Below, in pieces: positions 13,627 through 33,724 of a stretch of DNA of 35,382 bases. The notes under the pieces are model-generated. The model did no database searches. It saw nothing but the letters and a program-made list of their open reading frames with translations, and was not told where the DNA came from. The stretch's first letter is position 1; every line of letters begins with the position of its first letter. The translations under genes and the position numbers were made by a program. The stretch covers positions 1 to 35,382 of the forward strand of contig JAFDWG010000324.1 in the NCBI GenBank assembly GCA_018268605.1, given 5' to 3'. This DNA comes from Actinomycetota bacterium (GTDB lineage Bacteria; Actinomycetota; Thermoleophilia; Solirubrobacterales; 70-9).

Positions 13627-13640
13627 TAATCTTGTACAAT
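13627..13640 (+). promoter_or_regulatory. Promoter abutting the helicase start (leaderless mRNA likely)
   Basis: TAATCT (13627-13632) and TACAAT (13635-13640) are -10-like hexamers immediately before and overlapping the ATG at 13639. Predicted starts fall at about 13639 or 13647, that is on the first ATG or beside the third codon, ATG 13645. No Shine-Dalgarno sequence precedes the ATG. TTGTACAA (13632-13639) is also a perfect palindrome and could be an operator, perhaps for the HTH of the same protein. Confidence 0.45.
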
Positions 13641-15696
13641 GTTGATGGTGGTTGATCTAGGAGAAGATTACCTGCGCGTCAGCGACGCAGCTGAGTACGT
13701 CGGCGTTTCAGCGCAGACGATGCGGAGGTGGGAAAAGCAGGGGCGGATCGAGGCGGTCAGGCATCCGAGCAATCGCTATCGCTACTACCGCCGGGCCGAC
13801 CTTGAGCCCTTCCGGCTCGAATACCAGCGGGCCGCGGCCGGCACTTCTGATCCTGGACGCCTCTTCCAGACGGCAAACGCAAACGTCGAGGCGAACGATC
13901 TGCTCCGCGAGCCCCAGCGGGGCGCGCACCGCGCGGTACGCGAGCACTTCGAATCGGAGGATGCGCCTGCGATCCTCCAGATCCCTGTCGGCTGTGGGAA
14001 GACCGGCATCATGGCGACGCTGCCGTTCGGGATCTCCAGCAGCCGCGTCCTGGTCGTTACGCCCAATCTGACGATCCGGAAAGGGGTTGCGACCGCCCTG
14101 GATATCGCGAGCCGCGAGTGCTTTTGGGCGAAGACCCGCGTACTCGATGACTTCCAGAACGGCCCGTACTTCGCCGTCCTCGACAGCCAGGACGCGAATA
14201 TCCACGACTGCACCGAGAGCCACTTCGTCGTCACCAATATCCAACAGTTGGTCAGCTCGGCCGATCGCTGGCTGCCGCAGTTCCCGCCAAATTTCTTCGA
14301 TCTGATCCTGGTCGATGAGGGCCATCACGCGGCGGCGGCGAGCTGGCAAAAGGTCTTCCGGCGCTTTCCCGACGCCAAGGTCGTCAGCTTGACGGCTACG
14401 CCGTTTCGCGCTGACGAACTTCCGCTTGAAGGCGACGTTATCTACCGGTACCCCTTTGCCCGGGCCATGATGAACGGGTTCATCAAGCAGATCCGAACCC
14501 GAAGCGTGGCTCCTTCAGAGCTGACCTTCACCTTCGAGGGCGACACCAGCGAGCACACGTTGGAGGAAGTCCTCGAACTACGGGAAGAGCAATGGTTCCG
14601 CCGCGGCGTGGCCCTATCGCCCGAGTGCAACCGGCACATCGCCGAGGCGAGCATCCAGACCTGCAATGCGTTGCGGGCGGAGACCGGCATTCCGCACCAG
14701 GTGATCGCCGCGGCGTGCTCAGTCGACCACGCGCGCCAGGTGAGCGCGATCTACGGGGAATGCGGTTATCGGGCGGCCGAGATCCACAACGAGATGAGCG
14801 AAGAAGAACGCGAAGCCGTTCTCGATCGCCTGCAGACGAATCAGCTGGACTGCATCGTGCAGGTTCAGATGCTAGGTGAGGGCTTCGACCATCCGCGCCT
14901 GAGCGTCGCCGCCGTTTTCCGCCCGTACCGCAGCCTCGCGCCATACATCCAGTTCCTCGGGCGGGTCATGCGGGTCGTCGTCCAGAACGAGCCTGACCAC
15001 CCGGACAACGTCGGGTACGTCGTCTCTCACGTCGGGCTCAACAACGAGGAGCGGTGGGACGAGTTCCGGGAGCTGGACCTCGAGGATCAGCGCCTGATTC
15101 ACGACTGGCTCGCCGCGGAGCCAGGCGAGGATGAGCCGCAGGGCGGCGTTGGAGAGCCTCGGCGCTTCGACACGATCAGTCTGGTCGACAGCGAGCTCGT
15201 GAGTCATTTTGTCGACCGGGCGTTTCTCGACCCCGAGGACGATCGCGTCCTGGACGAGCTGCTCTCGAAAGAAGTTGCCCCCGGTGTGGTGCTCAGGGAT
15301 CTTGTCGACAAGGAGAGACTCCGCGACCAGCTGCGGCAGAAACTCGCCGCCGAGCAGGACTTGCCGGCGCCGATACCCGTCACCCCTCAACGCCGGCGCC
15401 AGGCAGCGCGAAGCCGTCTGAGCCAGCGGACGGGATCGGTAGTGGCCCGCATCCTCAAAGACCTCGGACTGTCGCGTCCAGGGCGCGACGTCGCCAAGGC
15501 GCTCGGTGGTCTCCCGGCTCCCAACGTGCAGCGGGTGACCGTGCTCGTCAACCAGGAGATCAACAAATCGCTCGGGGTGCCGTCTAAATCCCGCAAGAGG
15601 CTGTCGGCTGATCAAGCCGAGACGGCGTTGCATTCGCTCGACGAAATCGGAGACCGCGTACGGGATCGGTTGCGCGGGGAATTGGGAGGCGGGTAG
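13639..15696 (+). CDS. SF2 helicase with N-terminal MerR-type HTH
   Basis: A 685-residue protein. Residues 10-55 are a MerR/HTH_17-type DNA-binding unit (LRVSDAAEYVGVSAQTMRRW, then NRYRYYRRADLEPF). An SF2 DEAD/DEAH helicase follows, of the RadD/type I-restriction-like group: Walker A VGCGKTG (117-123), DEGH box (226-229), motif III SLTATPFR (250-257), motif V LGEGFDHPRL (412-421) and motif VI QFLGRVMRV (438-446). The last 180 residues are charged and helical, with no recognised nuclease. The ATP-driven translocation of nucleic acid is well supported; the role is not. It overlaps the downstream 76-aa gene by one base, so the two act together. Joining a specific-type HTH to such a helicase suggests sequence-directed loading or autoregulation. 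Confidence 0.88.
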   Translation: MLMVVDLGEDYLRVSDAAEYVGVSAQTMRRWEKQGRIEAVRHPSNRYRYYRRADLEPFRLEYQRAAAGTSDPGRLFQTANANVEANDLLREPQRGAHRAVREHFESEDAPAILQIPVGCGKTGIMATLPFGISSSRVLVVTPNLTIRKGVATALDIASRECFWAKTRVLDDFQNGPYFAVLDSQDANIHDCTESHFVVTNIQQLVSSADRWLPQFPPNFFDLILVDEGHHAAAASWQKVFRRFPDAKVVSLTATPFRADELPLEGDVIYRYPFARAMMNGFIKQIRTRSVAPSELTFTFEGDTSEHTLEEVLELREEQWFRRGVALSPECNRHIAEASIQTCNALRAETGIPHQVIAAACSVDHARQVSAIYGECGYRAAEIHNEMSEEEREAVLDRLQTNQLDCIVQVQMLGEGFDHPRLSVAAVFRPYRSLAPYIQFLGRVMRVVVQNEPDHPDNVGYVVSHVGLNNEERWDEFRELDLEDQRLIHDWLAAEPGEDEPQGGVGEPRRFDTISLVDSELVSHFVDRAFLDPEDDRVLDELLSKEVAPGVVLRDLVDKERLRDQLRQKLAAEQDLPAPIPVTPQRRRQAARSRLSQRTGSVVARILKDLGLSRPGRDVAKALGGLPAPNVQRVTVLVNQEINKSLGVPSKSRKRLSADQAETALHSLDEIGDRVRDRLRGELGGG

Positions 15697-16059: not shown

Positions 16060-17424
16060 ATGGGTGACTACTGGACGAACGAATCCGTACTCGCTTTCGC
16101 CGGGTCGCGAGATCCGCTCGAGGCGGTCGAAGAAGCGGCAAGAACGGCCGTTTTCGAGGCCGTTGAGGCAGGTTGGAAAGGCCCTCCCTTCGACCCCTTC
16201 GAGCTCGCCCGTCTACGCGATGTCGAGGTCATTCCTCGCAACGAGCTCCGGGAAGCTCGGACGGTCCCGGCCGACGGCGGTGTCGCGATCGAATACAACC
16301 CCACGCGACCTCGCGACAGGGTGCGTTTCTCGATCGCCCACGAGATCGCCCACACCTTGTTCGGCGACGTCACCCGCGAACCCCGCTATCGACACAACCC
16401 CTCCGCCGGCCCTACCGACGGCTGGCAGCTCGAGATGCTCTGCAACGTCGCTGCCGCGGAGATCCTCATGCCCACCGAAGTCCTCGGCGAGCACGCCCGG
16501 AAACCGATGCGCATCGAGGAGCTAATGGCTCTACGTGCGACCTTCGGTGTTTCCACCGAGGCCCTCCTCCGCCGTGCCACCAAGCTGGCTAACTACCCGG
16601 TGGCAATGTTCGCGGCCGCGCGGACGCACCCGGACGCACTCGACTCGAGTTTCCGCATCGATTACACCGTCCCCTCCCTCGCCTGGGGACCGAAGATCCG
16701 TCGCGGGACCGAGCTTCCGGGCGAATCGGTACTGGCGGCGTGTACGGCCGTCGGCTTCACGGCCCGGGGCGAGGAAGACTGGCCCGACTCGCCGCGCGGT
16801 CTCTCGGTGCAGGCCGTCGGTACCCCGCCCTATCCGGGTCAGAGACTCCCACGAGTCCTCGGCTGGCTCAGGCCGAAGGGAGTGTCCCGGGTCAAGCGCA
16901 TCCAGATCGATGAACGCCACGGTGATGCGACGAGACCTCACGGCAGCGGCGAGCGGATGATCGTCCACCTCGTCAATGACCGGACCGCGAACTGGGGTGG
17001 CCAGTTCGCCCGTGCCCTGAGCCAGAGACACCCCCAGAGCCAAGACGATTTCCGCTCCTGGGTCGATGAAGATTCAGCTCGCCTCCATCTCGGTGCGACC
17101 CGAATAGTCAGGATGGGCGGCGGCCTTTCGGTGGCCAGCGTGGTGGCCCAGAAAGGCTACGGCCCCTCGAAGAAAGCCCGAATCCGCTACAGCGCGCTGC
17201 GTGACGCGCTGTCGGCAGTCGCCAGCACAGCCGCGGAAACGGGGGCGAGCCTTCACATGCCCCGCATTGGTGCGGGGCAGGCGGGCGGGCGGTGGCCCCT
17301 CGTCCGCGAGATCATCGAGGAGACCGTCATACGGGCAGGCGTCCCGGTCACGGTGTACGTGCCACCGAGCCAGGAGATCGCCGACGATCCGGAGCCCTAC
17401 ACCGAGCTCCGACTGAACGTGTAG
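16060..17424 (+). CDS. ImmA/IrrE-type metallopeptidase fused to a macro domain
   Basis: A 454-residue two-part protein, first gene of a four-gene operon. Residues about 45-260 are an ImmA/IrrE (M78-like) zinc peptidase: the helix SIAHEIAHTLFGD gives His94, Glu95 and His98, and AAAEILMP gives the third ligand Glu134; the C-terminal extension with SLAWGPKIRRGTELP and GTPPYPGQRLPRVLG is usual for larger members. Residues about 299-436 are macro-domain-like: MIVHLVNDRTANWGGQFARAL has the ADP-ribose loop Asn and Gly-Gly, and PRIGAGQAGGRWPLVREII is the second ligand loop. Macro domains bind or remove ADP-ribose; ImmA-type proteases cleave repressors. The joint occurrence suggests a protease gated by ADP-ribose or NAD-derived ligands, or an antitoxin-like hydrolase. 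Inference only. Confidence 0.82.
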   Translation: MGDYWTNESVLAFAGSRDPLEAVEEAARTAVFEAVEAGWKGPPFDPFELARLRDVEVIPRNELREARTVPADGGVAIEYNPTRPRDRVRFSIAHEIAHTLFGDVTREPRYRHNPSAGPTDGWQLEMLCNVAAAEILMPTEVLGEHARKPMRIEELMALRATFGVSTEALLRRATKLANYPVAMFAAARTHPDALDSSFRIDYTVPSLAWGPKIRRGTELPGESVLAACTAVGFTARGEEDWPDSPRGLSVQAVGTPPYPGQRLPRVLGWLRPKGVSRVKRIQIDERHGDATRPHGSGERMIVHLVNDRTANWGGQFARALSQRHPQSQDDFRSWVDEDSARLHLGATRIVRMGGGLSVASVVAQKGYGPSKKARIRYSALRDALSAVASTAAETGASLHMPRIGAGQAGGRWPLVREIIEETVIRAGVPVTVYVPPSQEIADDPEPYTELRLNV

Positions 17425-17430
17425 ATCCTG

Positions 17431-19038
17431 ATGTCCGGCGTCGTGGTCGTCCTCTCAGGTCCGGTGTCCTCAGGGAAGACCACGCTCGCCCGGCGTCTCG
17501 CGGAGAGATTCGGCGCCAGGCATCTAAAGACGAGCACGCTCCTCGAAGCGATCTCCGAAGGGAAAGTTAAGCGCGAGCGGTGGGCGATGCAGAAACTCGG
17601 CTCGAGGCTCGATCGGGAGACGGATGGCGCCTGGATAGCCGAGGGCTTCGCGCAAGGAATCGAAGAGATGCCCTCCGACGCGGTGATCGTGATCGACGCA
17701 GTACGCACGCTCGAGCAGATCGAGGGCCTTCGCAGTGGTCTTTCCCGCGCAGTGGTTCATGTTCATCTGACGGCACCCCTGGCGGCACTGGAACGACGCT
17801 ACGCCCGAAGGCCTAAGTCTCGTTTCGCGGAGCGCGCAAGTTACGCCGAGGTCCTCAAGGACAGAACGGAGAAGCGCGTGCCGCTGCTGGCGGACGACGC
17901 CGACGTGGTCATCGACACCGGCAGGAGCACGCGTCCCGACGTCGCCGTCAGGGCGGCCAGCTATCTGGGGCTCAATGCCCGCGATCCAGGGGCGCTCGTG
18001 GACGTGATCGTCGGCGGGCAGTACGGAAGCGAGGGCAAGGGCAACATCGCCTTTGCGATCGGGCCGGAGTACGACCTTCTCTGTCGCGTCGGCGGCCCCA
18101 ACGCCGGTCACAAGGTGCCGCTGGACATGACCCTGACCCACCGGCTCCTGCCCTCCGCCACGCGCTCCGGCGAAGCGCCGATCGTGATCGGACCCGGAGC
18201 AGTCCTCGACATCGATGTCCTTTTCAATGAGATCGCCGAATCCGAGGTCGAGTACGGACGTCTTCACATCGATCCACAGGCGATGATCATCAACGCCTCC
18301 GACATCGAGGCCGAGGGCGGTCTCATGAACACCATCGGCTCCACCGGGAAGGGCGTCGGCGTCGCCACCGCCCGGCGTATCACCGAAAGGGACAAGCCGG
18401 CAGAACTCGCGCGAGACGTAAAAGCGCTGGAGCCGTTCATCGCTCCGACCGGCGAGATACTCGCTGACGCCTATTCGAGGGGATCGAGGATCCTCCTCGA
18501 GGGGACCCAGGGCTCAGGACTGAGTCTTTACCACGGCCACTACCCACACGTGACTTCGCGCGACACCACCGCGGCCGGATGCCTGGCGGAGATGGGCATC
18601 TCGCCCTCGCGGGTTCGCCGGGTGATCATGGTGTGCCGGACCTATCCAATCCGTGTCCAGAGCCCGTCCGGCAAAGGGAAAACCTCGGGGCCAATGAGCC
18701 AGCCGACGAACTGGACCGAGATATCACGACGTTCGGGCATTGCGCTGAAGGAGTTCCGCCGGGTCGAGAAAGGCTCGGTATCCAAGAAAAAACGTCGCGT
18801 CGGCGAGTTCGATTGGGACCTCCTCCGGAGGAGCGCCGAGTTGAACGGGGCGACCGACATCGCACTAACCTTCGTCGACTATCTGGACGTGAAGAATCGC
18901 GACGCCCGCCGCTTCGATCAGCTGCAGCCGGAGACGATCCGGTTCATCGAGGAGGTCGAGCGGGTCTCCGGGGCGCCCGTCTCCCTGATCTCGACCAGGT
19001 TCCACCTCCGTAGCGTCATCGACAGACGAGCCTGGTAG
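17431..19038 (+). CDS. P-loop nucleotide kinase fused to a PurZ-like adenylosuccinate synthetase
   Basis: A 535-residue fusion starting 6 bases after the ImmA-macro stop. Residues 1-180 form a P-loop kinase of the NMP/dNMP type (Walker A GPVSSGKTT at 10-18, acidic VIVIDAVRT at about 85). Residues about 190-535 are adenylosuccinate synthetase: GGQYGSEGKG (195-204), GGPNAGHK with the catalytic His at 227, STGKGVGVA, EGTQGSGLS with Gln360, and YPHVTSRDTTAAG. Ser200 replaces the catalytic Asp (Asp13) of PurA, as in phage PurZ, which makes 2-aminoadenylosuccinate from dGMP and aspartate. The domain is also about 90 residues shorter than PurA, again as in PurZ, and ends EFDWDLLRRSAELNG. A dGMP- or dNMP-directed ligase fed by its own kinase is the likely meaning. 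Confidence 0.85.
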   Translation: MSGVVVVLSGPVSSGKTTLARRLAERFGARHLKTSTLLEAISEGKVKRERWAMQKLGSRLDRETDGAWIAEGFAQGIEEMPSDAVIVIDAVRTLEQIEGLRSGLSRAVVHVHLTAPLAALERRYARRPKSRFAERASYAEVLKDRTEKRVPLLADDADVVIDTGRSTRPDVAVRAASYLGLNARDPGALVDVIVGGQYGSEGKGNIAFAIGPEYDLLCRVGGPNAGHKVPLDMTLTHRLLPSATRSGEAPIVIGPGAVLDIDVLFNEIAESEVEYGRLHIDPQAMIINASDIEAEGGLMNTIGSTGKGVGVATARRITERDKPAELARDVKALEPFIAPTGEILADAYSRGSRILLEGTQGSGLSLYHGHYPHVTSRDTTAAGCLAEMGISPSRVRRVIMVCRTYPIRVQSPSGKGKTSGPMSQPTNWTEISRRSGIALKEFRRVEKGSVSKKKRRVGEFDWDLLRRSAELNGATDIALTFVDYLDVKNRDARRFDQLQPETIRFIEEVERVSGAPVSLISTRFHLRSVIDRRAW

Positions 19039-19047
19039 GAAACCGGC

Positions 19048-19713
19048 ATGAAGCCCGAGGAGATCGCCGTGCACTACCCACGCCTGTTCCATATGGCCAA
19101 CCTCAGCTCATGGCCGAGCGTCCGGCGAGACGGCCTCCTCTCGACCCGTTCCCTCGTCGACCTCTATGAAGTCGACGGGGCACTCCGTGAGGAAATCCTC
19201 AGCACCCGTCGCCGCCACTCGATCCCGCTGGAGCACGGCGAGCTCGGCACGGCCGTCGTCCGGGACCAACTGCCTCTTAGGGAGAAGGCCCTCGAGAAGT
19301 GCCTTACAGACATGACGCTCGGCGATTGGCTCGAGACCCTGAACTCCCGGGTCTTCTTCTGGCTCGACGAACCTCACCTCGAGAACCTCCTCGGCGCCAG
19401 GGCTTACAAGGAGGATGCTCACGATGTGATCATCGTCGACACGGCGACGCTCGTTGATCGCGACGGTCCGAAGGTGAGGCTCTCCCCGATCAACTCGGGT
19501 TCGACCCTCTACAACCCCCGCCCCCGCGGCTCCCAGACGTTCCTTTCGATCGAGGACTATCCGTTCGCGGAGCGCCGACGCGCCCGCGGCAAGAACGCGA
19601 TCGTCGAGCTCGCGGTCGAAGGCGGGGTCGAGCGGATTGAGGAGGTGGCCGTGCGTGCCGAGAGACGTCGATGCGGCGGTGTGATCGAGGAGGTGCTGTG
19701 GGAGCGGCCGTGA
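19048..19713 (+). CDS. DUF7002-like protein, possible ADP-ribosyltransferase fold
   Basis: A 221-residue protein, 9 bases after the kinase-synthetase gene. The N terminus LFHMANLSSWPSVRRDGLLS (13-32) resembles the opening 'HxxxxxxxxSIxxxGLL' of Tpt1/KptA and DarT-like ADP-ribosyl transfer enzymes. Further conserved-looking pieces are VRDQLPL, LNSRVFFWLDE (98-108), DVIIVDTATLV, SPINSGSTLY (146-155) and a late Glu in IVELAV (187). This pattern fits the family I know as DUF7002, which has no proven activity. An R/H...S...E transferase triad could be His15 or Arg101, Ser151 and Glu187, but this is a guess. Its place in an operon with a macro domain, the usual antidote or reader of ADP-ribose, supports the idea. 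Confidence 0.7.
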   Translation: MKPEEIAVHYPRLFHMANLSSWPSVRRDGLLSTRSLVDLYEVDGALREEILSTRRRHSIPLEHGELGTAVVRDQLPLREKALEKCLTDMTLGDWLETLNSRVFFWLDEPHLENLLGARAYKEDAHDVIIVDTATLVDRDGPKVRLSPINSGSTLYNPRPRGSQTFLSIEDYPFAERRRARGKNAIVELAVEGGVERIEEVAVRAERRRCGGVIEEVLWERP

Positions 19714-20282
19714 CGATCTCGCTCGAGGGCCTGCCCGGCTCGGGCAAGACGACCACCGCCGAGCTCCTCGCCGGCATGATCGGGGTCGACTTCGCGCACG
19801 AGCGCTCTGCCGACGTCCCCTTTCTGGACGATTTCTACAGAGACGTCGAGCGATATACGTTTGAGACCGAGCTCTGCTTCGTTCTCGTCCATTATCACCA
19901 GTACCGCGACCTGCAGGGATCCACGATCCTCGACTTCTCGCCGGTAAAGGATCTCGTCTTCGCGGACGTGAATCTGGCGGGACGGGAGTACGAGCTCTTC
20001 CGTTCGATCTACGATCACACCTCGGGCTCCTGCCCCCCTCCTGACTTCGCCATCTTCCTGGAGCTTGAGACGAAGCACCTGTTGGAACGCATCGAGCAGC
20101 GTGGTCGGGCCTATGAGGTCGGCTTCGACGGCACCTACCTGGAGGCCGTCGGCGAGGGCTACCTCAGACGATTTGAGGAACTCGGAGATCAGGTCGGAAG
20201 GGTCCGGGTCTTACGGGACGACACCCGAGACGACGTCGCCGATGCTGTCAGAACCGCGCTAGCGGAGCTCGGCGCTCTCTAG
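19710..20282 (+). CDS. Deoxynucleoside-kinase-like P-loop protein
   Basis: A 190-residue protein. GTG 19710 overlaps the preceding stop as GTGA and places the P-loop strand at the N terminus (TISLEGLPGSGKTTTAELL); an upstream GTG at 19698 would add four residues. FLDDFYRDVERYTFETELCF matches the 'FxxDFYxDxxRxxFxxE' motif of dGK/dAK-type deoxynucleoside kinases, and ERIEQRGRAYE is the LID arginine segment. The DRS/DRY motif of the family is replaced by LDFSPVKDLVFA, so the substrate pocket or catalytic base may differ. It probably phosphorylates a deoxypurine nucleoside, which would supply the synthetase encoded two genes upstream. It is the last gene of the operon and is followed by a hairpin. 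Confidence 0.78.
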   Translation: MTISLEGLPGSGKTTTAELLAGMIGVDFAHERSADVPFLDDFYRDVERYTFETELCFVLVHYHQYRDLQGSTILDFSPVKDLVFADVNLAGREYELFRSIYDHTSGSCPPPDFAIFLELETKHLLERIEQRGRAYEVGFDGTYLEAVGEGYLRRFEELGDQVGRVRVLRDDTRDDVADAVRTALAELGAL

Positions 20283-20348: not shown

Positions 20349-21292
20349 TCAGACGTCGGATCGTAAGCCGTGCTTCTCCGCCGCCCACTTCAAGACCTCC
20401 GGCCCGACCGGCAGATCTCTGATCAGCTCCTGCCAGGAGACGGACACAAAGTTCACACCGCCGTCGCCGTAGTCGGCCACCGTCTCCCGAAGGACCACCG
20501 GCCAACCCGGCCAACGCCCAGTGGGACGGAAGTAGGGATTGTCGGCGTCGTAGATCAGACCGAACGCCGCTTCCCGGCCACCGCCGAGAGCGATCGCCGC
20601 GGCGGAATTCCGGACGGCCTGGTAGCCGGCGTGGATCGGGCAGGGGGTCCCCTCCTCCGGCCGGTTGAGACCGAAGATGCGTTCGGCAGCCGTCCAATAC
20701 GCATCCCGGCCGAGTATCCGCTCGCTGCAGTGACCGACGTCGGGTTCCTCGCAACCACAGGCGCTAATGCCGGGCTCAGTCCACTTCGCCTCCATCCAGA
20801 GGACCGACCCGGACGATTCGGCAAAGAAATCGAGCGCCGTCTGCCGCGGCCGCTCGCCCAACGTGTCGGGCTCGAGCTTCTTCTCGAACTGCGTTGTAAA
20901 CGGGGTCCCGGCGCTGGCCGGCATCCATGGCTCCAGGCTGCCGAACAGCCAGTCAAGCGCAGGACGTCGGGCGACGGCCGGGCCCAGGAGCCGAGGGCGA
21001 GGATCTGACTGGAGTTGGCTGAGAGGTGCTCACGATGGAGCTCGGATTCCGGGATCCGATCGGCCAGCACATCCCATCCAGGAGGAAGGGCGCTGGCGAT
21101 GTCGCGCGCCCGCAGTGGATGATCGCCAGCGAGCTGGGGATTGGCGGCGAAGTACCGCCGGTAGCGCTCGTTCTTCGCGCGCCTGTATTCACCGTGTGCC
21201 ACGCCACACTCGGCGGCTATCGCCGTGTTCGTCCAATTCCGGAGGTCTGCCCCGCCGATCGGCACCCGGCAATCTTGCCGCATTGGCATCAC
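20349..21292 (-). pseudogene. Frameshifted PGN_0703-like PD-(D/E)XK endonuclease
   Basis: Two minus-strand frames form one protein of about 314 residues. The first (from ATG 21292) reads through RYRRYFAANPQLAGDHPLRA to ELHREHLSANSSQILALG. At about 20995 the reading must shift: the next frame continues LLGPAVARRPALDWLFGSLEP, then on from 20924 to the stop. One missing base in CTCGGCTCCTGG explains this, since the span is 944 bases. The second part has the nuclease core: Asp in TALDFF, then 12 residues later MEAKW with Glu-x-Lys. Layout and motif context fit the PGN_0703 family of putative restriction endonucleases. It may be a true mutation, a sequencing error or, less likely, programmed frameshifting. 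Confidence 0.65.
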
Positions 21293-25633: not shown

Positions 25634-26526
25634 CAATCCGCCACCCGGCCGAGCCAGTCGATCTCGAGGCCCGGCTCACGGAGGCCGCGGAAGATCGGCG
25701 CATAGGGACCGCAGGCAACGAGGTCCTCGAGCAGGCAGATGCGGACCGCGACCTCAGGGCTTCGGGACAACCCCGGCTTTGCCCGGAGCAGGGCAAGCGC
25801 GGTGTCGCGGCGGCGTTCGAGCACCTCCCGTCCGGCGCCGGCGAGGACGCAGAGGACCCCCGGGAACACTGGGTAGCGACGGCGCCACACCGGCGTGCGG
25901 TCCTTGCCCTGCGCCGCGAAGAGCTCGGCGTATCTCGCCAGCTCGGCCGCCATCGCGTCCACCGGCAAGGTCGCCCGGTCGAGCTCGAGGAAGCGCTGCT
26001 CGACCAGCACCTCCTCCTCGGTCAGTCGTAGGTAGGTGAGGACGGCGTCGGCGATCACCACCCGCGCCCGCCTGCCGCGGGCGCCCGGGTGGAGCGGATG
26101 GGCGACCTCGTGGCGCCATGCGAGCGGGCCGAAGTCCTCGCCACGTTCGCGGGCGGCGCGCAGGAAGGCGATCGCCGCCTCGTTGACCGCGACGGTGTGC
26201 GCCTGCAGGGGTCCCCGTACCTCCTCGGCCGACATCACCCTCGGGGCCCGCGGCAACGTCCCCGCACCCACCGCGACCCGGATCCCCTCCTCGGTCGCGA
26301 ACCAGAGCCGCTGCGGGGCGCCGCTCGTGCGGGTGTGGTCGACCAGGCCGGCCGCGGCGATCCGCGAGAGGACCCGCCTGCACCAGCGCTCCTTCGCTTT
26401 CGGCAGGTGGATCGTCGCGATCTGCCGTGCGGAGAGGGCCCGGTGGACGGCGAGCGAGGCGACGATCTCGATCGTCGCCGCCGGCAGCCCCTGCGGGTTC
26501 GGGATCACGGGGGTCCTCGTCTTCAT
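25633..26526 (-). CDS. Replication-relaxation family protein
   Basis: A 297-residue protein with the Replic_Relax (PF13814) pattern: an N-terminal winged helix (LSARQIATIHLPKAKERWCR, then VLSRIAAAGLVDHTRT and a wing PQRLWFATEEG) followed by an alpha/beta domain with VNEAAIAFLRAARERG, DAVLTYLRLTEEE and FLELDRAT. Such proteins are encoded on actinobacterial plasmids and ICEs next to the coupling ATPase, as here, and are thought to act at the origin of transfer or replication. ATG 26526 overlaps the coupling-protein stop as ATGA. Confidence 0.8.
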   Translation of the reverse strand: MKTRTPVIPNPQGLPAATIEIVASLAVHRALSARQIATIHLPKAKERWCRRVLSRIAAAGLVDHTRTSGAPQRLWFATEEGIRVAVGAGTLPRAPRVMSAEEVRGPLQAHTVAVNEAAIAFLRAARERGEDFGPLAWRHEVAHPLHPGARGRRARVVIADAVLTYLRLTEEEVLVEQRFLELDRATLPVDAMAAELARYAELFAAQGKDRTPVWRRRYPVFPGVLCVLAGAGREVLERRRDTALALLRAKPGLSRSPEVAVRICLLEDLVACGPYAPIFRGLREPGLEIDWLGRVAD

Positions 26527-29153
26527 CCGTTCCTCCTGCGCGAGACCCCGAGCGCCGAGGGCGGCGACCCTCTTTGCGCTGGCGCAGGCGCTCCCGCCTC
26601 ACCCTCGCCGAGGCGTTCCAGTGCCTCGAGGATGCGGGCATCGAGCGTCTCCTGGTGGGCCAGCGCCTCGACCGCCTTGCGCCTGCAGCCCGACGCCTCG
26701 ACCGCGATGCGCAGATCGGCGAGCGCCTCGGGGCTCCCTTTCCCGAGCCCGTCCTCGACCCGCACGCCACGCAGGGCGAAGGGCGCGGAGAGCTCGCCGC
26801 CCTCGGTGACCTGGGCGACGAAGTGGTAGCGACGGAGTCGCGTCAATGCCGCCGGGTCGACGCCACCACCGAGCTCCCGAGCGACCAGGGCGGCGGCGTG
26901 GGAGTTGAGCGCCGAGACTAGGAGGTGGGAGCGGTTGGTGGTCAGCGCGTGCAGGGTCGCCGGCCGCAGCCGCTCGGGGTCCTGGTTCAGGAATATCCCC
27001 CGCAACCCGAACTTGGCCGACTGCTCGAGCAGGGCGGCGAGGCTCTCGCTGTCGTAGGACTGAACCTCGTCGAAGACGGCGACGAATCTCTTCCGTTTCT
27101 CCGGATCGAGCGCCGCCCGTGAGCGGGCGGCGTGGAGGAGGTCGAAGGCCAGGAGGCCGGCGACCAGCTTCTCCCGTGGTCCGCCCGAGCCCGGACAGGC
27201 GAGGACGATCAATCCCTCATCCATCGCCTCGCGCACCGAGAAGGTCCCCTCGCTCTGCCCGAAGAGCGCGGTGGTCGCCCGCGAGGTGCGGAGGCGGTCG
27301 ACCAGGTTCGTCACCGGCGTCACCGCCTCGGGGGACAGGAGCGGGAAGCGATCGGTCCAAAAGCCGCGGGCGTGGGCCGGGAGGAATGGGATCACCGCCT
27401 CGCGCCATGACTCGTCGGTGAGAAGGGTCGGCAGCTGGAAGATCGTCGGCGCGATCTCCTCCGGCACCACCTCGGCAACCCTCGCCAACGCCGCCGCGGC
27501 CTGCGTGGTCAGGTTGATCGCCCGCGTCGACTGCTCGCCCCATCCCACCGCCGCTGCAAAGGCGGCGACGATCGCGTCGACCCGCGCCTCCGGGTCGGCG
27601 CCTCGCATCCCGAAGAGGTTCCAGGCAGGCTGAGATTCGGGGCCGCCTGGGCCAAGGTCGATCTCGACCACCCGGCCCGCCACCTGTGGATCGCCCAGAT
27701 AGGGGCGAATCCGCTCGAGCGCGTCACCGTGGGGGTCGAGGAAGAGTCCGCCCTGGCCGGAGCGGACCAGGTGGGTGAACATCGCGATCGCCGCCTCGGT
27801 CTTGCCGTAGCGGGAGCGACCGGCGACATAGGTGAAGAAGCTCTCCTCGGCCCGCACCCCGACCAGACGCCCGCCGCCCTCGGCCGAGATGCGACCGACC
27901 GGGATCAGATCCTGCCTCTCCGGGGAGAATTCGGGGAGTGGCGGAGGCGGGGACAGGACCGCGCCGGAGCGGAGCACCGCCTCGACCGGACAGGCCAGGG
28001 TCGGCGGCTTCAGGAACCCGATCACCTCGGCCGCGGTGACGACGGCCCTCCTCGCGGGACGGAAGAGCCCGGTCTCCGCCCGCCGATCGAAGCGCCGCCT
28101 CCGCCCCGGCAGGTCGGAGCCGAGGAAGTCGAGACCGAGCAGCGGGATCCCGCGGACCCGCAGATAGTTGCGATCGGCGCTCCGAGCGAAGGCGTCGCGG
28201 ATACCCGCCATCAGCATCTTCGCCCGCCCCTTCCCAGGCGCGCTCACGCGAAGGAGGATCTGCGCCTCAAAGAGGGTCGAGCCGTCCCGCAGCTTCGACT
28301 CGAGCGCCCGGCCCAGCATCCGGCGGTCGAGGAGGTCGACGGGGTCGCGACCACGAGCCTGGCGCTCGCCGCCGAGTACCTCGGCGACCGACAATCCGGG
28401 CTCGCGGTTCCGTCTCCTCGCCTGTCTGCGCATCCGCCGCCGAAGCCTCGCCGCGCGGAACCCCGCCGCGGGCAGGAGGTCGACGTTCACCTCCGCCACC
28501 TCGCCGCGGTCACGGCGCACGCCAGCGAGCGCCGCGGCGAACGGGGTCAACGGATCAGGGTCGAGCGGCAGGCGCGCGAGCGGCTCCGAGGGCGGTCGGG
28601 CGAGGACCATCTCGGCGCGGACCGTCTTCAGTTCGCTCTCGCCCTCACCCTCGCCCTCGACCGCCAGGACCTCGGATGCGTCCTTGATCTCGACGCCCCT
28701 GTATGGACGGAGGGCGGTCCGCAACCGGGGCAGCTCTCGCTCGGGAACCTCGATGACGTAGACGAGCCGGCCCGAGGCATCGTTGGTCAGCCGGACCCGG
28801 ACCGCGCTCGCCGGTCGGTCGGTCCAGCCGCCGACCCGGTGCCCGGCCTGGGCCAGGCCGGCGGCGAAGGCCGCGACCGTCTCCGGTCGCGGCGCGAAGC
28901 CGTCGGCCGGGACTATCGCGACCGCACGCCGCGAAGCGAGCGTGCGGCGGGTGGCAAGGATGCGGTGTGTCGCCGGCGCCGAGGCGATCGCGGTCGCGCC
29001 GAGTGCGAAGGGGATCAGCGAGGCGGGATGGACACCGTCCAGGTGAGGATGGAGGTGCGCCTCGGAGAGGAGATGCCAGGCGGCGAGCGCGACGATCGCG
29101 GCGACGACGAGGACGATCGGCCAGCCATCATCGGTGCGGCGAGAGGGACCCAT
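26523..29153 (-). CDS. VirD4/TraG-like conjugative coupling ATPase
   Basis: An 876-residue protein. ATG 29153 starts it, overlapping the preceding stop. Residues 12-29 and 43-60 are membrane helices; 80-430 is a long alpha/beta region; the motor has Walker A GRSRYGKT (445-452), LFLDPHGD (470-477) and Walker B FVAVFDEVQ (690-698), and later FLNQDPERL and TNRSHLLVSAL. This is the arrangement of the type IV coupling proteins of Gram-positive elements, with DPHGD as in the TraG/VirD4/HerA-like superfamily. It would take relaxase-bound DNA from the replication-relaxation side to the channel. The longer upstream frame is rejected because it overlaps the upstream gene. Confidence 0.88.
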   Translation of the reverse strand: MGPSRRTDDGWPIVLVVAAIVALAAWHLLSEAHLHPHLDGVHPASLIPFALGATAIASAPATHRILATRRTLASRRAVAIVPADGFAPRPETVAAFAAGLAQAGHRVGGWTDRPASAVRVRLTNDASGRLVYVIEVPERELPRLRTALRPYRGVEIKDASEVLAVEGEGEGESELKTVRAEMVLARPPSEPLARLPLDPDPLTPFAAALAGVRRDRGEVAEVNVDLLPAAGFRAARLRRRMRRQARRRNREPGLSVAEVLGGERQARGRDPVDLLDRRMLGRALESKLRDGSTLFEAQILLRVSAPGKGRAKMLMAGIRDAFARSADRNYLRVRGIPLLGLDFLGSDLPGRRRRFDRRAETGLFRPARRAVVTAAEVIGFLKPPTLACPVEAVLRSGAVLSPPPPLPEFSPERQDLIPVGRISAEGGGRLVGVRAEESFFTYVAGRSRYGKTEAAIAMFTHLVRSGQGGLFLDPHGDALERIRPYLGDPQVAGRVVEIDLGPGGPESQPAWNLFGMRGADPEARVDAIVAAFAAAVGWGEQSTRAINLTTQAAAALARVAEVVPEEIAPTIFQLPTLLTDESWREAVIPFLPAHARGFWTDRFPLLSPEAVTPVTNLVDRLRTSRATTALFGQSEGTFSVREAMDEGLIVLACPGSGGPREKLVAGLLAFDLLHAARSRAALDPEKRKRFVAVFDEVQSYDSESLAALLEQSAKFGLRGIFLNQDPERLRPATLHALTTNRSHLLVSALNSHAAALVARELGGGVDPAALTRLRRYHFVAQVTEGGELSAPFALRGVRVEDGLGKGSPEALADLRIAVEASGCRRKAVEALAHQETLDARILEALERLGEGEAGAPAPAQRGSPPSALGVSRRRNG

Positions 29154-29821
29154 CAGCGATCCGCCTTGGTGTGGCGGGGAGATCTCGGCAGATTCCGACC
29201 ACGGGATTCGCCGGTGTGATGCGGAGAACCGCCGCTCGGCGGCGAGATCGGGGTGGCCGGCGGGCGGGCCCGTAGACGGGCCTCGGGGGTGGCCCGCAGG
29301 TGGGCCTGAGTCGGCTGGATGGGGCGCGGACCGCTCTCCGCCCGGAGGCGCGGAAGATAGGCGCGACCGGGGTCGTCGAAGCGGCGCAGGAACCATGCCC
29401 AGCCGCGACGGGCGGCGGCCGTCGAGGGCGCCCGGACCTCGAGCACCGCCCGACCGTCGCGGGCGCCGACCAGCGTGACCGACACCCCACCGTGCCGCCA
29501 CGGCACATGCTGCAGCGCCCGGTGGGTTTCGAGCTCTCGCTCGGCTCTTCCGTGGGCCGAGGTCCCCGGTCGGTCCTGGGGGTCTTGTCGTCGCGCTGCG
29601 CCGGAAGGGCCCGCGGGCCTCGGCGCGGCGCGCTCGGGCTGCCCCACCCCTTCGGTCGGCGCCGTTGCCGGGTGGTCACCTGCTGCTTGTCCGTCCTCGC
29701 GGACCGAAGCGGCGACCAGGCAGGCGAGGCCGACGGTCACGACCATCGCGAGCAGCACCACCTGCCTCGCCACCTCCGGGTCGAGAGGACGCTCGAGGAG
29801 CACGCGCAGCCGCCCGATCAC
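29153..29821 (-). CDS. Single-helix conjugation protein, unknown role
   Basis: A 222-residue bitopic protein. GTG 29821 overlaps the stop of the hydrolase gene as GTGA. Residues about 15-41 contain a membrane helix (VARQVVLLAMVVTVGLACLV), then a Pro/Ala-rich linker rich in Arg, and a folded part from about 110 (HVPWRHGGVSVTLVGARDGR, RRGWAWFLRRFDD) before a disordered Pro/Arg tail. Topology is like small pore or linker proteins (VirB8- or TcpC-sized), but no sequence match is clear. Its stop overlaps the coupling-protein start. Confidence 0.65.
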   Translation of the reverse strand: MIGRLRVLLERPLDPEVARQVVLLAMVVTVGLACLVAASVREDGQAAGDHPATAPTEGVGQPERAAPRPAGPSGAARRQDPQDRPGTSAHGRAERELETHRALQHVPWRHGGVSVTLVGARDGRAVLEVRAPSTAAARRGWAWFLRRFDDPGRAYLPRLRAESGPRPIQPTQAHLRATPEARLRARPPATPISPPSGGSPHHTGESRGRNLPRSPRHTKADR

Positions 29822-30990
29822 GACCGACCCCCTTCGTGACCGAGGCCGGGTGGCTCGGCGTAGGCGTATATCGGGCCGGCCTCCCCCTCCGCGACCGCGA
29901 GGCCCGGAGGGAACGGCCCGACCCGGGCGACCCGGTCGCCGAAGTTGCCCTCGATCGTGACGATCTCGCCGCCGAGGACCGACTCGACGATGCCGACGTG
30001 TTCGGAGGCGGTCGGGCCCCAGCCGTAGAGGACGGCGTCGCCGGGCGAGGGCGTAGCGCCCGGCGGCAGGACCCGCCCGCCGTGTTCCTTCACCCAGCCG
30101 TAGAAGGAACCCGAGTACGCATAGGGCGCGGTGCCACCCTGCATCGGGACCCCGGCGTGCTCCCAGACCCAGGCGACGAAGAGCGCGCACCATTCCTCGC
30201 AGGGGCCGAACTTCGAGCAGTTGGAGCCGAGGGGACTCTCGGTCACGCCGAGCTGGGAGCGCGCGATCCTGACGATCGCCGAGCCCGAGGCCCCGGTCCC
30301 GACCGCGGCCGACCCGCCGCACCCGGCCCCCTGCGACACCCGGACAGATTCGTGGGCGCCACCTGAGACCCAGCCTTCCTGGCTGAACCCGAAGGAGACC
30401 GCCCGGGCCATCACCTCGTGGGCGTAGTCGACGATCCCGTCGGCGCAGGCGCCGTAGTAACTGCAGGCGGCCCGGTAGTAGCCCTCGTAAGCGCCGCCGG
30501 CGGGAGGGGCGCCGAGGTCAGAGCGGAAGATCCGCGCCGCGGTGAAGATCGCGTCGGCCGGGTCGAAGATCGAGGCGCCGTTGCCGTCGGCGTCGACCCT
30601 GAAGCGCTCCCAGAGGGTCGGCACCGAGGGATCCGGGCTGCATTCCGAGCCCCGCACGTAGGCGATCTCCATCACCCCGGCGCAACCCGAGGGCGCGACC
30701 CCGCAGTGCCCGTCGGTCCCGCACTCCTGCACACCGATCGCGGCGAGGAAGGGCCAGCTGATGTTGAACCGTGCCCCCGCCCCCATATATATGTGGAGGC
30801 GGGCGGCGGGGAGTTCGCTGAGCGCCTTACCCGCCGGCGCCGGCCCCCCAGCGATTCCAGTGGCCCCGCCGCCCACGCATCCGAGCTGGGCGCCGAAGGT
30901 CGCCATGATCGCCGCGGTGATGAGTGCGGCGATCAGAGCCGCCGTGCCGGCCGCGGCGAGCGGCCAGGCCTTGCGGGCGCCGCTCGTCAT
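29818..30990 (-). CDS. Lytic transglycosylase / CHAP wall hydrolase of the transfer system
   Basis: A 390-residue bifunctional wall-opening enzyme. Residues 9-33 are a membrane anchor. Residues about 70-200 are a transglycosylase-like domain: ISWPFLAAIGVQECG with Glu89 as candidate catalytic acid, then GVMEIA, DPADAIFTAARIF and YYGACADGIVDYA. Residues about 245-375 are a CHAP amidase: CEEWCALFVAWVWEHAG with Cys268, PSPGDAVLYGW and HVGIVESV with His331. This two-domain form is the Gram-positive VirB1 equivalent (TcpG-like) that cuts peptidoglycan at the mating pore. ATG 30990 overlaps the VirB6-like stop. Confidence 0.87.
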   Translation of the reverse strand: MTSGARKAWPLAAAGTAALIAALITAAIMATFGAQLGCVGGGATGIAGGPAPAGKALSELPAARLHIYMGAGARFNISWPFLAAIGVQECGTDGHCGVAPSGCAGVMEIAYVRGSECSPDPSVPTLWERFRVDADGNGASIFDPADAIFTAARIFRSDLGAPPAGGAYEGYYRAACSYYGACADGIVDYAHEVMARAVSFGFSQEGWVSGGAHESVRVSQGAGCGGSAAVGTGASGSAIVRIARSQLGVTESPLGSNCSKFGPCEEWCALFVAWVWEHAGVPMQGGTAPYAYSGSFYGWVKEHGGRVLPPGATPSPGDAVLYGWGPTASEHVGIVESVLGGEIVTIEGNFGDRVARVGPFPPGLAVAEGEAGPIYAYAEPPGLGHEGGRS

Positions 30991-33179
30991 CGCCCCTCCT
31001 CTGAATCGTCCGGCCTGCGATGGCTCGGGGCTGGCTTTGCCTGGGGCGCTCGGGCCGCGGACTCCTCGCGCGGCGCAGCCTCGGATCCAGCCTTCCTCCG
31101 CTCCGCCCGCGCCCGCTCGGCGTCAGCTCGCAGCTCCTCGCCGAGGCCGCCCTCGCGCGGCCGCGGAGAGCCGGCGGGCGGGGGCGTCGACTGCGCTCGC
31201 TTCCCGGCCCGGTTCGGCCGCGGCGGCGAGGAGTCCGCGGCCCGACGTTCGGAGTCGGCCCGCCCCTTGGGCTTCCGCTTCTCGGATCCCTCCGCGGCCT
31301 GGCGCCGCTCGGTGCTCCGATCGACGCCCGCCCGTCGCCGCTGCTGGTCCGCGCGGCTCTCCCGCCGCGGGCGGTCCTCACGGTCGGCCGCTCGCTCCCG
31401 CTCGGGCCCGCGCCTCGCCGGGACCGGCCGCTCGGTCCTCGCCACCCGCCGCTCGCCCTGGGCCGAGGAAGTCCCTGCGGCTTCGGCTGCCTCAGATCGT
31501 GCCGCGGGTCGGGGCGGATCGTCCCCGCTCCGGCCGGTCCCGGGCCGGCGATCCGGTGTCGAGCCGTCGCCTCCCGCCGGCTGTGCGCTCGTCGCGTCTC
31601 CTCGCGCGGCGTCCCGCGGGCGGCCTTGACGCATCCGCGAGCCAACCGCCCTGACCGGCCGGGTCACGGTCCTCGCCCCGAGCCTCGCCCCCGAGTAGAG
31701 CGCCAGCACCTCGAGCGCCTTCCCCCCTCCCGGCACCCCCGGCCCGGTGACAGCGCCGATCAGGCCGTCGGTGAGCGAGCGTCGCTGCAGGAAGACCGCC
31801 CAGAAGAAGGCGCACTGCAGCCCGAACGAGAGCAGCCAGCCGAGCTCGGAGGTGGCGGCCGAGATCGCCGCGCAGACCGCCAGCAGCACCGCGAGCACCA
31901 GCGAGTAGGCGGCCTTCCGCAGCAGCAGGCCGGCCAGCTTCGAGAGCCACCCCTTGAAGAACTGATGCCCTCTCCCGGGGATCGCCGCCGCGACCAGGGC
32001 GACCGGGCTGAAGGCGAGCAGGAGGAGCAACAGGACCTGGGCGGTGATCACCCCGATCGAGAGCGCCCCCAGCAGGACGAAGGCGCCGAGCTCGGCGCAG
32101 AAGACGACGATCGCGACCAGCAGCCGCTGGTACTGGCCGCCCTTTTCCATCGCCGCCGCGGCGGGGGTGTCGACCGGGCCGAGTTCGTAGTTGCCGTCCT
32201 TCTTGCCGGGGTCGGCGTCGGGTAGCTTCGACGAGTCGCCGTGCGAGAGGGCTTCGAACTCTCCGTCGCGATCGTCCGACCCCGGTTCGAAGCGCAGGAA
32301 GTGCGGCCCGTACTTCTTTAGGTTGTCGATGCAGGTCTTGCCGCCCGCCGAGACCTGTTCCCCGGATTCCAGCCGCCGCGCTGCGCCTTCGGGCAGCGGC
32401 TGCACCGCGACCGATTCAGGTTCCTCCCCTCCCCCTGCCTTCACGCAGTGATCGAGGCCACCGAACTCGAGCACCGACCAGGGCTGGGCGACCAGCAGGC
32501 CGAACAGCTGGTTCGCGCCCGCTTCCTTCGCTTCACCCTGGCTGACGGGCTCGCCGTCCTTGGCGATCGAGAGGAACGCCCCCGACATCGCGTTCGTCCA
32601 GTGCGAGGCCTCGCCGATCGTCTGCGCCGGCTGCAGGACGAAGAGGAAGGCGATCCCGACGTAGACGAGGGAGAGGGCGAGCTGGCCGGCGGTCTCCGCG
32701 TAGCGCCTCTGCACCAGCGCCTTCCACATCGCCCAGCAGCCCGACACCGATACCGCGAGCACCATCCAGGGACCGCCGAAGACGTCGGCGTAGATCGAGG
32801 AGATCGCGCGCGAGACCGGCCCGAGGGCGCCGGCGCCGTTCGTCGCCGCCGATCCGTTCACCAGGTCGAGCGAGAAGGCGAAGGCGAAGAGTTCGATCAG
32901 CAGATTCGCGAGCCAGGCGGTGAGCTGCCAGAGCTCGTTGGCGAAAAAGTAGGCGATCATCGGTAGGAGGCCGGAGACGTCGACGCCGCTGAAGACGCCG
33001 GCCGAGACCGCCGTGAAGTGCTCGTCGAGGGCGTAGTTGCCGAGCGGATAGCGCGTCGCCAGCCCGGCCAGCGAGGGGGCCGGCCCCACGTTCGCCCAGA
33101 CGTCGGCTTGCGCGACCGGGCCGCAGAGCAGGACCAGTGCCCCGGCCGCCGGCAGCACCAGCAGGATTCGCCGCCTCAT
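30987..33179 (-). CDS. VirB6/TrbL-like polytopic transfer protein
   Basis: A 730-residue protein. Residues 1-26 are a signal peptide (MRRRILLVLPAAGALVLLCG, ending VAQADVW). Two groups of membrane helices follow, at about 75-215 and 365-500, with a soluble loop between them that carries paired Cys. This is the TrbL/VirB6 design. Residues about 530-730 form a very basic, Arg/Ala/Pro-rich tail, likely disordered and cytoplasmic, that could bind DNA or the ATPases. ATG 33179 is the start, overlapping the VirB4 C-terminal stop. Confidence 0.82.
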   Translation of the reverse strand: MRRRILLVLPAAGALVLLCGPVAQADVWANVGPAPSLAGLATRYPLGNYALDEHFTAVSAGVFSGVDVSGLLPMIAYFFANELWQLTAWLANLLIELFAFAFSLDLVNGSAATNGAGALGPVSRAISSIYADVFGGPWMVLAVSVSGCWAMWKALVQRRYAETAGQLALSLVYVGIAFLFVLQPAQTIGEASHWTNAMSGAFLSIAKDGEPVSQGEAKEAGANQLFGLLVAQPWSVLEFGGLDHCVKAGGGEEPESVAVQPLPEGAARRLESGEQVSAGGKTCIDNLKKYGPHFLRFEPGSDDRDGEFEALSHGDSSKLPDADPGKKDGNYELGPVDTPAAAAMEKGGQYQRLLVAIVVFCAELGAFVLLGALSIGVITAQVLLLLLLAFSPVALVAAAIPGRGHQFFKGWLSKLAGLLLRKAAYSLVLAVLLAVCAAISAATSELGWLLSFGLQCAFFWAVFLQRRSLTDGLIGAVTGPGVPGGGKALEVLALYSGARLGARTVTRPVRAVGSRMRQGRPRDAARGDATSAQPAGGDGSTPDRRPGTGRSGDDPPRPAARSEAAEAAGTSSAQGERRVARTERPVPARRGPERERAADREDRPRRESRADQQRRRAGVDRSTERRQAAEGSEKRKPKGRADSERRAADSSPPRPNRAGKRAQSTPPPAGSPRPREGGLGEELRADAERARAERRKAGSEAAPREESAARAPQAKPAPSHRRPDDSEEGR

Positions 33180-33724
33180 CGCGAACGCTCCCGCGGGGTC
33201 GTGTCGAGGGCTGCCAGGAGCTCCGGCAGCGGATCGACCTGGACCTCGCCGACCCTGCCGTCGAGGTCGCGCATCAGGCACCGCCCCCGCCGGTACTCGG
33301 TCACCCGCTGGGCGAGTCCGCCCTCCTCGGGGTCGAGGCCGATCTCCGCGATCCCCGCCGCCGCGGCCCTGATCGAGTCCTGGCCGAAGAGGAGCGTGAC
33401 CCCGACCAGCTGCGAGAGCTCGCCGAGGTCCTCGACCCGCTGGCTGACCAGGAGGATCGTCGCGTTGAACGCGCGCCCGAGCCGCACCAGACGGTTGAGG
33501 AGGGCCCGCCCCTGCGAGGAGGCGAAGAGCGCCCAGGCCTCGTCGAGGACGACGAGCTTGTGGCGCGAGCGATCGCCGGAGATCAGCTTCAGGGCCAGGG
33601 CGGCGACCAGCGCCAGGGTCGCCACCGAGACCCGCTCCGAGCGCGTGTAGGCGGCGCGCTCGGTGCCGGGCTCGGGCAGGTTGAGGCCCGGCATCCGGAT
33701 CGTGATCAGGTTCGGCGCCGCCAT
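33176..33724 (-). CDS. VirB4-like ATPase, C-terminal half (Walker B)
   Basis: A 182-residue polypeptide that continues the VirB4 fold. It has LNLPEPGTE, an all-helical stretch, the Walker B HKLVVLDEAWALFAS, a following LVRLGRAFNATILLVSQRVEDL with the conserved Gln of the motor, and the C-terminal helices. On its own it lacks Walker A, which sits at the end of the upstream gene. ATG 33724 shares bases with the upstream stop (TGATG), so the two are coupled. Together they equal a normal VirB4; the break at this point is unusual. Confidence 0.8.
   Translation of the reverse strand: MAAPNLITIRMPGLNLPEPGTERAAYTRSERVSVATLALVAALALKLISGDRSRHKLVVLDEAWALFASSQGRALLNRLVRLGRAFNATILLVSQRVEDLGELSQLVGVTLLFGQDSIRAAAAGIAEIGLDPEEGGLAQRVTEYRRGRCLMRDLDGRVGEVQVDPLPELLAALDTTPRERSR

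Follow-up and report, generated by a model that had tools for sequence, protein, structure and literature searches.

A single open reading frame of 535 codons, encoding 535 amino acids on the plus strand at positions 17431-19038 of the window (the whole stretch of 35,382 nucleotides that was analyzed), joins a P-loop kinase to a PurZ-type synthetase. Our results confirm that this kinase-PurZ fusion is real and intact, and that it arose neither by chance nor through an assembly error. Judging from the sequences, we are inclined, with modest confidence, to regard its product as truly bifunctional and as central to a mobile cassette of defence-like character that would most likely act against phages or other mobile elements; this degree of confidence applies to the explanation as a whole, including the steps of the pathway proposed below.

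The N-terminal P-loop NMP-kinase domain (17431..17985, + strand, residues 1 to ~185) was delimited by P-loop-kinase models and conserved residues, and the C-terminal succino(amino)adenylate synthetase domain of the PurZ type (17986..19038, + strand, residues ~190-535) by model matches, a tree and an alignment. GC content and third-position GC are alike in the two halves, and the gene starts 7 bases past the end of its upstream neighbor. The initial annotation, which had placed a P-loop kinase ahead of a synthetase, is borne out by the one continuous frame and by the family models that match each half, and both kinase motifs that it had named, the P-loop GPVSSGKT (residues 10-17) and the basic stretch LERRYARRPKSRF, were found and are conserved. 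Its description of the ligase as PurA-type has to be corrected, as the active site is of the PurZ type, with Ser replacing the catalytic Asp. The domain-architecture search that it had proposed was run and returned the identical full-length architecture in plasmids, genomes and viral contigs, and this recurrence excludes both a fusion peculiar to this DNA and an error of frame or assembly.

An unbiased tblastn search of plasmids returned eight records in which 95-97% of the fusion protein was covered at 43-49% identity (four from Rhizobium, two from Agrobacterium and one each from Sinorhizobium and Methylobacterium), and a genome from the same order as the window encodes the fusion at 76% identity. 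When genome contigs were scanned with the single window protein as query, no matches were obtained, whereas an alignment-based scan of ~85,000 species genomes yielded 79 further loci that spanned both domains of the fusion; as these derive from the best 80 of 414 relatives, totals are lower bounds. The fusion is thus present at no fewer than 89 loci in cellular genomes or plasmids, which represent more than 13 phyla and include archaea (Pseudomonadota, Actinomycetota, Acidobacteriota, Verrucomicrobiota, Chloroflexota, Myxococcota, Planctomycetota, Bacteroidota, Thermoplasmatota and others), and five viral contigs also carry the full-length architecture. The full fusion is nevertheless rare, being confined, among 396 genomes of the window's phylum, to the window's genome. 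In one archaeal contig (L047, 8001-13375), two convergent copies of the fusion flank one DUF7002 gene.

The synthetase half belongs with PurZ, and its substrate is probably dGMP. Residues 190-533 match the short adenylosuccinate synthetase PRK04293 (285.8 bits), and the domain also matches PHROG 1211 (2-aminooxy adenylosuccinate synthetase; 4e-65). The match to NF038379 (PurZ) amounts to 190.7 bits over residues 190-470, below the curated cut-off of 300 bits, and we therefore name the synthetase PurZ-type rather than PurZ proper. Ser200 (GSEGKG) stands at the position of the PurA catalytic Asp13 in 93/93 full-length fusions, a conservation that is partly due to selection, since one of the two genome-scan patterns included the Ser motif; Ser is also present in the eight unbiased plasmid matches and in nine loci outside the Ser scan pattern. 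His227 (in GPNAGH) is invariant in the same 93 proteins. Asp was found in 8/8 PurA sequences compared with the fusions, namely six host PurAs (one of which was read from two overlapping loci) and that of Pyrococcus horikoshii. Phage PurZ, which condenses dGMP and Asp using ATP, has Ser in 147/147 phage sequences, and a survey of PurZ found it in phages and in four archaeal sequences (PMC12884076). In a joint alignment, the fusions and phage PurZ have Ser304 and Arg403 where PurA has Thr and Lys, respectively, share Pro406 and Ser419, and are changed at position 481 (mostly Phe, compared with mostly Lys in PurA) and mostly Tyr at position 484 (Tyr484). The pocket of S-2L PurZ comprises Y21-G22-S23, N49, A50, T132 and Q190, and F306 of that enzyme stacks against the ATP base (PMC8342488); in the fusion, the pocket residues correspond by motif to Y198-G199-S200, N224, A225, T305 and Q360, and F306 is aligned with F481.

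In a tree of the synthetases, which was built by a quick method and whose branch support is to be read cautiously, a PurZ clade of 97 rows (phage PurZ and fusions) was split from PurA (SH-aLRT 99), the sampled fusions, whether of cellular or viral origin, all formed one clade (SH-aLRT 100), and the sister group of the fusions, with modest support (93), comprised synthetases that stand alone, encoded in viral contigs and at two cellular loci. The P. horikoshii PurA, the host PurAs and a plasmid synthetase (locus L013) lay outside the PurZ clade, and phage fusions were scattered at different places within the cellular ones. That all sampled fusions fall in one clade excludes an error of frame or assembly, and sequence comparison can be regarded as having demonstrated that these proteins arose once and have spread widely by horizontal transfer. 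Like the PurZ and PurZ0 enzymes of phages (phiVC8, S-2L, Arthrobacter and Gordonia phages), with which it shares a clade, the synthetase half is short and has Ser for Asp, the dGMP-pocket motifs and an aromatic residue at the position that stacks on the ATP base. It differs from them in having an NMP kinase attached, in its location in cellular genomes and defence-like cassettes, and in retaining Glu201 (GSEGKG), where phiVC8 has GSTGKG. Among PDB entries, the short-form PurA of P. horikoshii (PDB 5k7x/2d7u) gave the best match, which spans the entire synthetase half (E=4e-81); this PurA is of the same length class but has the catalytic Asp (GDEGKG) and falls outside the PurZ clade. Every genome examined retains a further PurA-type synthetase match, with Asp wherever the motif was read. 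The window's genome encodes a separate PurA with GDEGKG, together with PurB and the guanylate kinase Gmk, so that the next steps towards dZTP would be available in the host.

In the kinase half, residues 1 to ~143 match the P-loop kinase models AAA_17 (2.4e-8), AAA_33 (8.6e-8) and AAA_18 (2.1e-7). The P-loop Gly and Lys are conserved in 91/91 fusions having that region; of the LID-like arginines, R123 is present in 93/93 and R127 is Arg in 85 and Lys in 5 of 93; in the DxVRxxxQ motif (D89, R92, Q96), D89 is conserved in 89/93 and R92 in 92/93; and an HVHLTAP motif occupies the 110-116 region. A profile of 30 kinase domains retrieved AdkA-like/UPF0200 proteins first (E=3e-11) and adenylate kinases next, and D89-x-V-R92-x-x-x-Q96 is similar to the motif found at the NMP site in that group. 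The domain therefore carries the sequence features of an adenylate-kinase-type NMP kinase, that is, the P-loop, an NMP-site D-x-(x)-R and LID arginines. The profile match to AdkA-like/UPF0200 proteins and adenylate kinases (PDB 3lw7, 3h0k) extends over the whole domain and includes D-x-V-R and the basic LID region, whereas the fusion kinase is set apart from all of these by the joined synthetase and by its own invariant residues (R50, G57, D61, W68, Q96, H110 and R123). The conservation of both active sites at ~90 loci makes it plausible that one polypeptide both makes and phosphorylates a nucleotide. The type of NMP kinase, and the fact that candidate suppliers of dGMP have genes of their own that exclude one another, favor phosphorylation of the product over making of the substrate as the predicted role of this half. 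At four loci, an extra stand-alone kinase of the fusion's type lies beside the cassette (L071, 10268-10822; L077, 10286-10873; L086, 10242-10853; L094, 7430-8014); these proteins share ~25-34% identity with the kinase half of the fusion in the window and could help to test its function.

Among the accessory genes, the window encodes a deoxynucleoside kinase (dNK; 19671..20282, + strand; PF01712, 5.7e-24) that overlaps the end of the DUF7002 gene. A MazG-like gene was found in 14 loci, an HD phosphohydrolase gene in 12 and a dNK gene in 5, counts that include two stand-alone-synthetase loci (L012 with HD, L017 with dNK); the three never overlapped, and most loci are without any dGMP-related accessory gene. 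Such mutually exclusive genes fit a role in the supply or control of dGMP. The window and locus G055 have the same four genes, dNK included, at 61-76% identity and in unrelated flanks. Rhizobial loci have the HD phosphohydrolase and a conserved 455-aa protein in place of the M78-macro protein; the 455-aa protein (L004, 12068-13426, and rhizobial relatives) lies beside HD in 11 rhizobial-type loci and matches no family. A MazG-like (PRA-PH) gene is present in actinobacterial loci. A close relationship of these proteins to their phiVC8 counterparts was not supported, as the MazG-like protein gave no alignment with the phiVC8 neighbor gene tested and the match of the HD protein to the phiVC8 phosphohydrolase was confined to the HD core. 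With regard to the set of genes of Z genomes (PurZ, MazZ and DatZ), the MazG-like and HD genes never occurred together at one locus. At 10 loci, the vicinity of the cassette or of a related synthetase also encodes an uncharacterized protein of ~250 aa with no Pfam or PHROG match (L017, 6853-7659; L039, L041, L044, L046, L052, L055, L066, L074 and L082). At L012 (6995-9057) and L017 (4853-8327), a stand-alone PurZ-type synthetase has directly behind it a dCTP-deaminase-like protein that may be anchored in the membrane; an HD phosphohydrolase and a ThiF protein are also present in the former and a dNK in the latter, and this arrangement is possibly a second PurZ-type cellular system.

The most constant partner of the fusion is the DUF7002 protein (19048..19713, + strand), which was assigned by Pfam, where DUF7002 alone matched. 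Within the flanks fetched, its gene is near the fusion in 88/89 cellular or plasmid loci (the exception is L094), nearly always directly downstream and on the same strand. A strict dependence of DUF7002 on the fusion was rejected, as 13/396 genomes of the phylum have a DUF7002 match and only that of the window has the full fusion; two plasmids likewise carry DUF7002 without it. The residues H15, R55, R72, D73, Y120, N149, G151, F165 and E187 are invariant. The N-terminal region around H15 weakly matches DarT1 (E=0.06), and comparison with DarT profiles aligned 25 columns (P=1.8e-4), a short motif around the same His. The invariant H/Y/E residues and this short DarT1/DarT match are the basis for reading DUF7002 as a candidate ADP-ribosyltransferase, and they suggest that it may be DarT-like. 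DUF7002 had no match among the PADLOC 2.0.0 models.

Directly upstream of the fusion, the M78-macro gene (16060..17424, + strand) encodes an ImmA/IrrE/CapP-like metallopeptidase with a C-terminal ALC1/TARG1/DarG-like macro domain. The peptidase has HEIAH at 94-98 and Glu125 as third ligand, with H94, H98 and E125 conserved in 61/61 sequences and E95 in 60/61, and it matches capP (2.2e-19) and PDB 7t5t and 3dte; the macro domain matches the BT1257 macro domain (E=3e-44), ALC1 (E=3e-21) and DarG (8.5e-5). The gene lies directly upstream of the fusion in 63/97 loci, and a macro-domain protein was undetected in ~1/4 of the 89 cellular loci though DUF7002 was present, which indicates that DUF7002 does not always need a macro partner. 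The HExxH metallopeptidase domain is common to this protein and to the CBASS-associated CapP and IrrE/PprI M78 peptidases. It differs from these in its fusion to a macro domain and in its neighborhood, as a conserved adjacent HTH repressor gene, of the kind that accompanies M78 peptidases in CapP-CapH and ImmA-ImmR, was looked for at the loci and none was found.

The fusion also occurs in phages. The uncultured-phage contigs L097, L099 and L100 carry it without DUF7002 and M78-macro genes; a nucleoside deoxyribosyltransferase (NDT)-like domain fused to a MazG-like domain is encoded in two of them (L097, 2144-2929; L099, 8814-9722), and a family-A DNA polymerase in L099 and L100. The Z enzymes of known Z-DNA phages keep similar company, which supports the proposal that the fused enzyme would make a modified purine nucleotide. 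The NDT-MazG chain recalls the functions of DmtZ and MazZ in one protein. Searches for the nearest phage relatives did not support assignment of the adjacent family-A polymerases to DpoZ proper. In L098, the whole cassette lies beside a serine integrase, and in L101 beside phage repressor and replication genes. The kinase half was covered by 0/218 annotated phage records.

Defence genes are common around the cassette. At 46 loci, the 92 proteins flanking the cassette gave hits to 192 PADLOC models (E<=1e-10), including type I restriction-modification, BilD and PDC-S19, whereas 92 control genes, taken from fixed regions in 28 of those genomes, gave hits to 9; the figures count models, which overlap, rather than proteins, and the controls are fixed stretches. 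Rhizobial neighbors comprise AbiEi/AbiEii, SIR2, AbiJ-NTD4, RelA/SpoT and AAA + UvrD pairs. The cassette itself was unrecognized as one known system by PADLOC 2.0.0, which gave domain-level matches only (M78, macro, P-loop), and it was undescribed in the open-licence literature searched, which is weak evidence of novelty. In the window, a RadD/type III Res-like helicase that bears a MerR-type HTH at its N terminus (13639-15696, + strand) lies upstream of the cassette and a REase-ARP family nuclease (20349-20924, - strand; PF22558, 3e-8) directly downstream. Further on, long minus-strand frames at 26523-35250 include an AAA_10 (VirB4/TrwB-like) ATPase (33724-35250) and a CHAP peptidase (29818-30990), and these frames suggest a conjugative element as the setting of the window.

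The following pathway may be proposed. From its active site and the published chemistry of PurZ, the PurZ-type half would convert dGMP to dSMP, from which host PurB would produce dZMP, the 2-aminoadenine deoxynucleotide. The fused kinase, given its type and the separate genes for dGMP supply, would then add a second phosphate to dZMP (or dSMP), and in this way an unusual purine deoxynucleotide would build up towards dZTP. The accessory enzymes could supply or free dGMP, dNK from dG and the MazG-like protein from dGTP, and the HD phosphohydrolase could trim competing nucleotide pools. DUF7002 would be a DarT-like ADP-ribosyltransferase whose product the macro domain might reverse or sense, and the M78 peptidase might be a switch that responds to damage or infection. 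A bolder proposal, which we hold to be possible but somewhat short of probable, is that the cassette serves a form of immunity widespread in bacteria and archaea, in which phages are fought with an unnatural purine deoxynucleotide, the phosphorylated succino- or 2-aminoadenine product of the fusion; the nucleotide could then be antiviral itself, a mark of self or non-self DNA, or a signal for DUF7002 and the macro-domain protease.

Other explanations have to be weighed against these. The probability that assembly or a frameshift joined two genes is negligible: the frame is intact in ~94 sequences from independent assemblies, among them complete plasmids and chromosomes, and the only support for an artefact is L057, an exceptional locus at which the kinase and synthetase halves lie in separate frames; the ORF calling used here was simple. 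We consider it very unlikely that the ligase serves secondary metabolism, such as a nucleoside-antibiotic pathway with a PurA/PurZ-like enzyme, rather than defence. A precedent exists in L013 (6989-14711), a Rhizobium plasmid whose cluster of the 7-deazapurine type includes a PurA-like gene along with those for PurB, QueC, QueE, FolE, nitrile hydratase and IMP dehydrogenase, but that synthetase stands alone and is not of the PurZ clade, the annotated fusion loci have no such biosynthesis genes, and the cassette extends across phyla and archaea, in prophage-like contigs and defence-rich regions. The kinase might also act upstream, making or recycling (d)GMP, or phosphorylating dGMP or AMP for pool balance, with channeling of the substrate. 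The intact P-loop and LID residues, a kinase-synthetase order suited to channeling into PurZ and the many loci that are devoid of a separate dGMP-supplying gene are all in keeping with this; however, AdkA-like/UPF0200 proteins and adenylate kinases use monophosphates and would not convert dG to dGMP, and supply enzymes, where present, are separate genes (dNK, MazG-like), so that we judge an upstream role improbable.

Finally, the cassette could be primarily a DarTG-like toxin-antitoxin system, with DUF7002 as the toxin, the macro domain as the antitoxin and the M78 peptidase in control, in which the kinase-PurZ protein, by supplying or removing a nucleotide, would regulate or neutralize the toxin and would not itself act on phage DNA. 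As in DarTG, a macro protein and a candidate DNA- or nucleotide-directed ADP-ribosyltransferase are encoded in one operon; the macro domain is akin to those of ALC1, BT1257 and DarG, DUF7002 has the DarT-like N-terminal motif along with the invariant H/Y/E, and M78 enzymes of the IrrE/CapP kind are tied to damage responses and immunity. Here, however, the macro domain is fused to M78, a nucleotide-synthesis gene lies between the macro and DUF7002 genes, and DUF7002 is unrecognized by models of DarT or other Pfam families. Moreover, the constant pair is the fusion and DUF7002, for which no macro partner was detected at about a quarter of the cellular loci, and we regard this explanation as rather doubtful.

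In summary, the enzyme PurZ is known from phages, where it rewrites viral DNA, and the ~90 cellular kinase-PurZ loci suggest that cells also use Z-type chemistry, perhaps directed against phages. Whether cells make dZ nucleotides and use them in immunity can now be tested, and DUF7002, an unnamed family, gains a functional context. The fused enzyme could also serve as a compact biocatalyst towards dZDP or dZTP. If the immune function proposed here is true, the Z-DNA chemistry of phages would be matched by one in cellular immunity, and it would be from cells that some phages acquired the fused enzyme.
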